Positions 23,535-24,803 of a stretch of DNA of 32,210 nucleotides are shown one piece after another. Position numbers and translations under genes: made by a program. Source of the stretch: Candidatus Thorarchaeota archaeon (GTDB lineage: Archaea > Asgardarchaeota > Thorarchaeia > Thorarchaeales > Thorarchaeaceae); contig JAEOUG010000145.1 of NCBI GenBank assembly GCA_016839445.1, forward strand, positions 1-32,210, in the 5' to 3' direction. Position 1 is the first letter of the stretch; every line of letters starts with the position of its first letter. The notes below the pieces were generated by a model. That model did not search any database. It worked only from the letters and a program-made list of their open reading frames with translations, and was not told the DNA's origin.

Positions 23535-23581
23535 CACAAAAGAAGAAGAAACCGTCCTGAGCCTGCCGGCCGAGGACGGTT
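23535..23581 (-). terminator. intrinsic-like terminator of acidic microprotein
   Basis: On the minus strand, 27 bases after the stop of the 40-aa gene, a perfect 9-base stem AACCGTCCT (23581-23573) / AGGACGGTT (23558-23550) with a 14-base loop is followed by TCTTCTTCTTTTGTG. This hairpin-plus-T-run is a good terminator and supports an independent short transcript. Confidence 0.75.
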
Positions 23582-23607: not shown

Positions 23608-23730
23608 CTACCAGTCTTCGTCGTCATCGTCGAAGTCTTCGTCGTCATCGTCATCCCAGTCGTCATCATCGAGATCTTCATCCCAGTCGTCATCATCTTC
23701 TGGGCCTGTGAAACGATAGCTGTACTTCAT
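23608..23730 (-). CDS. 40-aa highly acidic microprotein
   Basis: This short reading frame runs from ATG 23730 to TAG 23608. The protein starts MKYSYRFTGPEDDDDW and continues as two DDDDWD-type repeats and a final DFDDDDEDW. Of 40 residues, 26 are Asp or Glu; the only Lys/Arg are K2 and R6, and W occurs at 16, 25 and 40. AAAAGGTG lies eight to twelve bases before the ATG as ribosome site, and a strong hairpin-T-run terminator follows. It is probably a disordered, very acidic protein that may mimic nucleic acid or bind metal or basic proteins. No known family was recognised. Low-complexity sequence alone could mislead, but the RBS and terminator argue for a gene. Confidence 0.72.
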   Translation of the reverse strand: MKYSYRFTGPEDDDDWDEDLDDDDWDDDDDEDFDDDDEDW

Positions 23731-23966
23731 GGTGATTACACCTTTTCCGTCCCTGCCTACCACAGAAACAGTTATGCGTGACTGGAACCGTCAACACATC
23801 TCATATTGCCTTTTCAGCAAACTTCGTTGTCCAAAACCCTCTGAAGACGGCAAATCGCGTTTTCGACGCCATTGATTGAACAAGTGGGTTTTCCATCTCC
23901 ACAAAGAAGAAATACAGACCTGTTACACACGCGACGTGGTGTCACCTTAGGGAACTTGTCTATGAT

Positions 23967-24803
23967 GTGCAGTCTATGAGCGGGATTGAGCCTCAGGACT
24001 CCTCTGCTGAGGAGCTCGTTCAGCAGGGTCGGCCAACTATCATTGTTCTACTTGAGCGTAGCGAGGGCCTGAGGGAGGCAGCGCGACTTCTCGCACAAAT
24101 CCAGGGGATGCAGAGAATTGCGAGAGGCGTATTTCAATACAACATGAGCTATACAAAACTTCGCACATCGAGGGATCTGCCCAAGCACGTGGCACTTCGG
24201 AAGACGCGTTCAATCCCTAGGGTGCGAGAGGCTGTGGGGGACGCCTCACCTGCCAGGACCTATGCGCTTGTCACATATCGATTCGAAAATCCCACCGCCA
24301 AACAGAAGAAGGTCGTTCAAAGACTCAGACGAAGAGCCCCGGCTGTCAGATTAAGACCCGGCGTACTTCTCTTCCCCCATATAAGGGCTGGAGAATCGAG
24401 GAAGCAGTTTGGAGTTGAGTCAGAGCGGCCACCCATAGGCTCACTCGACTTCACAAGGAGACTGTCCGAGCTTTGCGCGCAGGTTCACCGGCTGACAAAA
24501 CTCCGCCTGGCTAATCCGGGCGACACCATGTTCGTCAACGAAGCAATCGAGTCGACAATCGCGTCCGCCTCGGAAGCCATGGAAGAGAGGCTTAGAGTCC
24601 TGAGGGGGGCCACCAAGGATGAGGGCATTCCAACAAGGAAACTCAGGGAGCGGTATAAGGAGATCTCAAGAGACTTCAAGGATCTCAAGATGACGGCATC
24701 CGTCATCCGCCATGTTTGGGGATACGACTCAGGTAGTCGCTTGAGGCGTGTCTATGACCTCCTTCTCGGTACACGGAGGGCAATCTCCGACAGAGCGGCA
24801 TGA
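23967..24803 (+). CDS. uncharacterised protein, Cas2/PaaX-like segment
   Basis: A 278-aa basic protein from GTG 23967 or ATG 23976. Residues 97-137 (YALVTYRFENPTAKQKKVVQRLRRRAPAVRLRPGVLLFPHI) have the strand-helix-strand layout of a ferredoxin-like fold as in Cas2, VapD and the PaaX C-terminal part: a strand ending in Y/D, an Arg-rich helix, then LxPGVxxFP. No catalytic residues of Cas2 are evident. The last 90 residues are helical and basic (LRERYKEISRDFKDLKMTASVIRH). RNA or DNA binding is likely from the charge but not shown. No CRISPR or cas gene is nearby. Confidence 0.75.
   Translation: MQSMSGIEPQDSSAEELVQQGRPTIIVLLERSEGLREAARLLAQIQGMQRIARGVFQYNMSYTKLRTSRDLPKHVALRKTRSIPRVREAVGDASPARTYALVTYRFENPTAKQKKVVQRLRRRAPAVRLRPGVLLFPHIRAGESRKQFGVESERPPIGSLDFTRRLSELCAQVHRLTKLRLANPGDTMFVNEAIESTIASASEAMEERLRVLRGATKDEGIPTRKLRERYKEISRDFKDLKMTASVIRHVWGYDSGSRLRRVYDLLLGTRRAISDRAA

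Follow-up and report, generated by a model that had tools for sequence, protein, structure and literature searches.

Features of the ACID gene

Does a short frame made up largely of Asp and Glu encode a genuine protein, and which partner would such a polyanion serve? The question was raised by a 32,210-nucleotide stretch of Candidatus Thorarchaeota DNA (hereafter the window), in which a first, sequence-only reading had pointed to an extremely acidic 40-residue microprotein. The frame, named ACID, was read from 23730 to 23608 with an ATG start and a TAG stop, and its translation was MKYSYRFTGPEDDDDWDEDLDDDDWDDDDDEDFDDDDEDW. Asp and Glu accounted for 25 of the 40 residues (62.5%), and Trp occupied positions 16, 25, and 40 of the window copy. 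At a fixed threshold of 13 Asp/Glu in 20 residues, on which the counts of acidic frames depend, ACID was the only such frame in the window and none occurred in 100 dinucleotide-matched random windows, which confirmed the claimed acidity. The features of the locus are collected in Table 1.

Table 1. Features at the ACID locus in window coordinates.
Feature	Position	Strand	Basis
Acidic-tryptophan microprotein CDS (ACID), 40 aa	23608..23730	minus	translation, syntenic orthologues, purifying selection
Probable ribosome-binding site AAGGTG	23739..23744	minus	sequence; comparison across 25 loci
Intrinsic-terminator-like hairpin, interrupted U-rich tail	23537..23580	minus	stem ACCGTCCT/AGGACGGT; folding
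Divergent intergenic region	23731..23966	no strand	divergent layout kept in 24 family loci and two further families
Conserved gene of the basic partner DUF (278 aa, net charge +23)	23967..24803	plus	no Pfam/NCBIfam family

The ribosome-binding site noticed in the first reading was present and modest in the window copy, being a weaker form of the GAGGTGA or AGGTGA located 5–8 nt upstream of the start codon in most orthologues (25 loci compared). The hairpin of the proposed terminator (~23551–23580) was real, with a flank fold of −26.8 kcal/mol (z = −2.8, equalled by 1 of 200 shuffles), and several orthologues were likewise trailed by hairpins with U-rich tails. However, the U-tract was interrupted (TTTCTTCTTCTTTT) and a consensus terminator scanner gave no call at the hairpin, so the description as a strong T-run was slightly generous. 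Rfam matched no family in the ACID region, and a tRNA search of the window found none. The host genome (2.9 Mb) was archaeal and encoded TFIIB, an RPA-like OB-fold protein, and a Ras-like GTPase.

The promoters of ACID and DUF must both lie in the divergent intergenic region. In many loci of family f1 (family labels are arbitrary), a conserved TTTACTCTT-like element was located about 40 nt upstream of the ACID start codon and is a possible promoter or start-site element; it was weak in the window copy. TATA-like sequences were seen about 70 nt upstream of the start in some f1 loci.

Conservation of ACID in Asgard archaea

ACID is a genuine, strongly conserved gene of Thorarchaeota and related Asgard families. 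When Asgard archaea were searched with the DDDWD DNA pattern and the flanking DUF gene as queries, the same site was recovered in relatives, where it carried a Trp-bearing frame of 25–40 residues with about 60–75% Asp/Glu, divergent from DUF. The frame varied in length and remained open. Between close orthologues, the ratios of synonymous to nonsynonymous codon changes were 7:1, 9:1, 7:2, and 4:1. The pooled NG86 values were dN 0.0135 and dS 1.81, of which the ratio is approximate because dS was near saturation in some pairs. Both the syntenic frames and the codon conservation bear out the earlier suggestion of an overlooked conserved gene. Neither of the outcomes named beforehand as refuting it, a frame lacking in relatives or one disrupted by length variation, was observed.

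A protein-level search with ACID returned essentially only the self-match and no PDB relative. Owing to its low complexity, ACID is missed by protein searches, whereas synteny and DNA patterns detect it. Orthology was based on position, a shared N-terminal motif, and codon evidence, since low-complexity alignment scores cannot prove homology, and acidic matches inside large proteins of several genomes were discarded. The N-terminal start Y-x-F-x-GPEDD was common to the window copy and genome G063, and took the form Y-x-[FY]-(G/P)PEDD in family f9. Trp, Phe, Tyr, or aliphatic residues recurred at intervals of about six positions, a spacing more regular than random placement would give, and the last residue was Trp, Phe, or Tyr in 15 of 16 sampled copies. 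The regular Trp positions first read from the window copy were therefore upheld for the family (combined p ~1e-6 over 16 copies), but not for the window copy alone (p = 0.12). A literature search of incomplete coverage found no description of the family.

Other acidic-Trp sequences were also observed. Second paralogues were present in g1 genomes (L051:7361-7471, L056:112-186, L062:5763-5930, and L126:5380-5457), mostly a few kb away from DUF, and none was found in the window. A larger, zinc-ribbon-like protein (SELKCCKRCGAF...CPEC) in L127, L193, L195, and L196 had a long acidic tail of the same kind, with a DEDW or DDDW terminus in some copies.

The basic neighbour DUF

DUF is a previously undescribed family of basic proteins. 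It was found in 39 of 228 Asgard genomes, distributed over eight families (38 genomes with a broader profile). All named relatives with the gene were 'Candidatus Thorarchaeota', and a search of viral contigs found nothing. The net charge of DUF averaged +29 (range +18 to +41), and that of ACID −19. No family was convincingly assigned by Pfam, NCBIfam, or PADLOC, and the window protein matched no family model; one of 30 members matched Pfam PaaX_M, the Cas2-like domain of PaaX, and one matched the PADLOC Cas2 model (E = 0.0045).

Two AlphaFold2 models of DUF (pLDDT 86 and 88) were composed of two ferredoxin-like (Cas2-like) domains and a C-terminal three-helix bundle. When the models were compared by Foldseek, PaaX (8a39) was the top match both times (E = 1.1e-3 and 0.018) and Cas2 chains ranked lower, with low whole-chain TM-scores. 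The charge and this weak fold match suggest that DUF is probably a nucleic-acid-binding protein.

Assignment to either match was rejected. The N-terminal winged helix of a PaaX regulator was replaced in the two predicted models by a beta-alpha-beta-beta-alpha-beta arrangement. Cas2 is a ferredoxin-like protein of about 90 residues beside cas1 in a CRISPR locus, whereas DUF has several domains in 278 residues, and no cas1-like gene was found among ten window proteins scanned with Pfam, neighbours included.

Linkage of ACID and DUF

ACID was located within 600 bp at 37 of the 41 Asgard DUF loci. Elsewhere in the same 594 kb only eight acidic frames occurred, two of which were second copies in the same cassette. 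Among the loci lacking ACID, L057 ended at a contig edge, its missing half probably being the end of contig L130 of the same genome, and L067 had merely 154 bp of upstream sequence. L065 and L105 were apparent true negatives. Two of these DUF loci without ACID nearby belonged to families f6 and f12. The two genes were divergent in f1, f5, and f16, and ACID followed DUF on the same strand in f9 and f13; the linkage persisted across different flanking genes. In genomes G052 and G131, DUF was present in two copies, and a separate ACID and Lys-rich frame accompanied each copy. No significant covariation was found between the net charges of DUF and ACID (Spearman −0.23, p = 0.18).

Judged from sequence, ACID probably binds DUF. 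We estimate at about 0.47 the probability that ACID is a disordered acidic-aromatic ligand, or a nucleic-acid-mimicking chaperone, of basic nucleic-acid-binding partners, with DUF as the first of them. Among the functions listed in the sequence-only reading, that of an acidic partner or mimic of a basic protein is favoured by the position of ACID beside a basic protein that probably binds nucleic acid, while nothing here was specific to histones or RNA polymerase.

Two further proteins were noted around DUF. A MRKKWKKKRARKMRRKRRR... peptide resembling ribosomal protein eL41 was present in L104, L109, L110, and L111, a few kb from the f9 DUF cassette. A membrane protein whose N-terminus is very acidic was located downstream of DUF in L052, L060, L115, and L120, and was conserved beside the carbon–nitrogen hydrolase locus.

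ACID loci without DUF

Nine Thorarchaeota-family genomes without DUF (genera g4, g7, and g10) retained ACID at the same locus, between a purine-nucleoside-phosphorylase-like gene and a carbon–nitrogen hydrolase, as around the ACID–DUF pair in other genera. Absences are uncertain because the genomes are mostly incomplete metagenome bins. ACID of g4 was under selection, with dN/dS mostly ~0.1–0.2, and is therefore valuable without DUF. Thus, DUF cannot be the sole client. In family f2, which is inferred to be Lokiarchaeota-like, ACID-like acidic Trp frames, some of the form MAKKK-DDDEDW, occurred with no DUF nearby.

ACID might instead serve a basic partner independent of DUF, such as a histone, the ribosome, RNA polymerase, or another piece of abundant machinery. 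DUF would in that case be a neighbouring regulator or a secondary client. The retention of ACID between the same flanks in g4, g7, and g10, the selection in g4, and the unrelated genes adjoining the f2 frames all agree with this possibility. It leaves unexplained the 37 of 41 DUF loci with ACID, their spread over several families, the duplicated cassettes, and the two opposite layouts, and is considered unlikely, if still a serious alternative.

The f2 microORFs were observed in L174–L186 and L202–L206, several with a MAKKK start, and their neighbours were MobA-like, SPATA20-like, or cysteine-desulfurase-like genes.

Lys-rich frames near ACID

Lys-rich frames of 17–33 residues, for example MAKKKPAAKKSTKTETKKKKK, accompanied ACID at many loci. 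They were placed between DUF and ACID in f9, where most loci had one, and just downstream of ACID in nine f1 loci, and were present at both f13 loci. In f13 and f2, the Lys start and the acidic tail can form one peptide, for example MVPKKKDTEDDDEDWDDDDDDEEWDDDDEEWDEDDEY. No Lys-rich frame was found near ACID in the window or in most f1 loci, and a search of the window genome gave two MAKKK starts, both of longer proteins distant from the ACID locus. Codon changes in the Lys-rich frame were 5:1 and 3:3, a thinner evidence of selection than that for ACID. MicroORFs beginning with MAKKK... or MGSKK... were seen in L053, L054, L056, L058, L062, L106, L107, L109, L111, L114, and L116.

Such frames, adjoining ACID or fused to it, would suit a polyelectrolyte pair in which ACID and the Lys-rich peptide form a dynamic complex or condensate with DUF as a scaffold, and high-affinity complexes of disordered charged proteins are a precedent (PMC7661507). 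Since Lys-rich frames are missing near ACID in the window and at most f1 loci, and the codon evidence for them is thin, this pairing is quite unlikely. It is also unlikely that Asgard archaea control nucleic-acid–protein assemblies or condensates with a dedicated module, in which microproteins of complementary charge, a polyanion of Asp and Trp and a polycation of Lys, would be assembled around or by a new Cas2-fold protein.

Other explanations

The tight linkage of the two genes also recalls a toxin–antitoxin pair, in which DUF would be a Cas2/VapD-like basic nuclease toxin and ACID its acidic disordered antitoxin. DUF is patchy (38–39 of 228 genomes), its cassette occurs in different neighbourhoods, and its predicted fold is Cas2-like, one member matching the PADLOC model. 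As to co-inheritance, 37 of 41 DUF loci were paired with ACID and nine genomes carried ACID alone. The survival and conservation of the supposed antitoxin throughout a genus without the toxin weakens this explanation. In addition, transcription in f1 is divergent and separate, no known toxin–antitoxin or defence family fitted, and, by eye, the Cas2 Asp was missing from the conserved first strand (YxIVxYSF) of the Cas2-like domain. A toxin–antitoxin function is accordingly held to be improbable.

A buffer or sensor peptide for divalent metals (Mg or Ca), of which the earlier reading named a metal buffer, would account for the very high Asp density, and several f2 versions contained DWDNDGxFEEDF, with a DxDxDG EF-hand-like loop. 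These loops lend the metal proposal weak support in the Lokiarchaeota-like versions, but the loop was missing in the window copy, the acidic part of which contains no Gly, and an EF-hand-like calcium peptide was rejected for it. Moreover, neither the Trp/Phe spacing nor the terminal aromatic residue (15 of 16 copies) is needed for metal binding, and the linkage to a basic protein is left unexplained. Metal buffering is thus very unlikely.

DSS1/Sem1 proteins are about 70–90 residues long with a C-terminal helix-forming segment. ACID has 25–40 residues and is acidic up to the last residues, which makes it too short and leaves it without a helix-forming C-terminus. A DSS1-like adaptor binding ubiquitin-like folds, or mimicking DNA on a repair protein, would have a similar composition, and the engineered, higher-affinity ubiquitin motifs of DSS1, WEDDWD (PMC9381478), are near ACID strings. 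The ubiquitin motif requires aromatic residues about three positions apart; W/F/Y-x3-W/F/Y occurred zero times in the window copy and was absent from most of 25 orthologues, so that a DSS1-like role is highly improbable.

A leader peptide acting by attenuation or by MgtL-like acidic destabilisation of the ribosome would explain why a hairpin trails a short acidic frame, but it is excluded, as far as sequence can do so, because the downstream gene varies among relatives (GNAT, cupin, or flavin reductase on the same strand, or a gene in the opposite orientation) and the amino-acid sequence, not an RNA structure, is conserved, with no Rfam match.

Proposed mechanism

The mechanism proposed for ACID as a ligand or chaperone of basic proteins starts from the observed gene, its selection, its linkage, and its charge. 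With about 20 negative charges on 25–40 residues, folding of ACID alone is implausible. We infer that ACID would remain disordered and would bind the positive faces of DUF and at least one other basic partner through long-range electrostatics, with the Trp, Phe, or Tyr residues about every six positions as low-affinity anchors. By mimicking nucleic acid or by chaperoning a nucleic-acid-binding protein, ACID may hold the basic partner in a soluble, unloaded, or inactive state, to be displaced once real nucleic acid arrives. The divergent or operonic placement of the genes would balance the two products.

ACID represents a conserved family, too short and too low in complexity for protein searches, from the archaea most closely related to eukaryotes. 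Other undescribed families go with it, namely DUF and, at many loci, the Lys-rich microORF. The combination of synteny, DNA patterns, and codon evidence is a worked recipe for finding such genes. If the less likely module of Asp/Trp and Lys microproteins exists, it would be an archaeal counterpart, unseen by annotation pipelines, of the charged disordered chaperones of eukaryotes. ACID is a concrete, testable case for the question of whether archaea had charged disordered chaperones for basic proteins that bind nucleic acids.

Comparison with known systems

DUF resembles PaaX and Cas2 in that PaaX was the best Foldseek match and Cas2 chains appeared in both lists. However, the first domain of DUF is predicted to be ferredoxin-like and not the winged helix of PaaX. 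The ACID–DUF pair resembles type II toxin–antitoxin systems, for example VapD-like ones, in its two tightly linked small genes, a possible nuclease-like fold, and an acidic, presumably disordered partner. The pair differs in its divergent transcription in f1 and in the retention of ACID without the putative toxin. ACID shares with DSS1/Sem1 the character of an acidic, in ACID presumably disordered, protein with Trp amid Asp/Glu, but it is shorter and has aromatic residues spaced by about six, whereas DSS1 is longer with an aromatic ubiquitin motif of three-residue spacing.

A further likeness is to prothymosin alpha and linker histone H1. When compared with prothymosin alpha, ACID showed no homology by any test here, has 25–40 residues with regularly spaced Trp, and is linked to a Cas2-like archaeal protein rather than to a histone. 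Nevertheless, like prothymosin alpha, ACID is small, very acidic, and presumably disordered, and is paired with a strongly basic protein. Binding in the prothymosin alpha–H1 system is charge-driven (PMC7661507, PMC11971343), and ACID is likened to it from genomic linkage and charge complementarity. Oppositely charged disordered proteins are known to form high-affinity complexes (PMC7661507), and prothymosin alpha binds the globular domain of H1.0 while the polyanion remains disordered (PMC11971343). The binding of prothymosin alpha to both folded and disordered parts of H1 indicates that such physics works (PMC7661507, PMC11971343).
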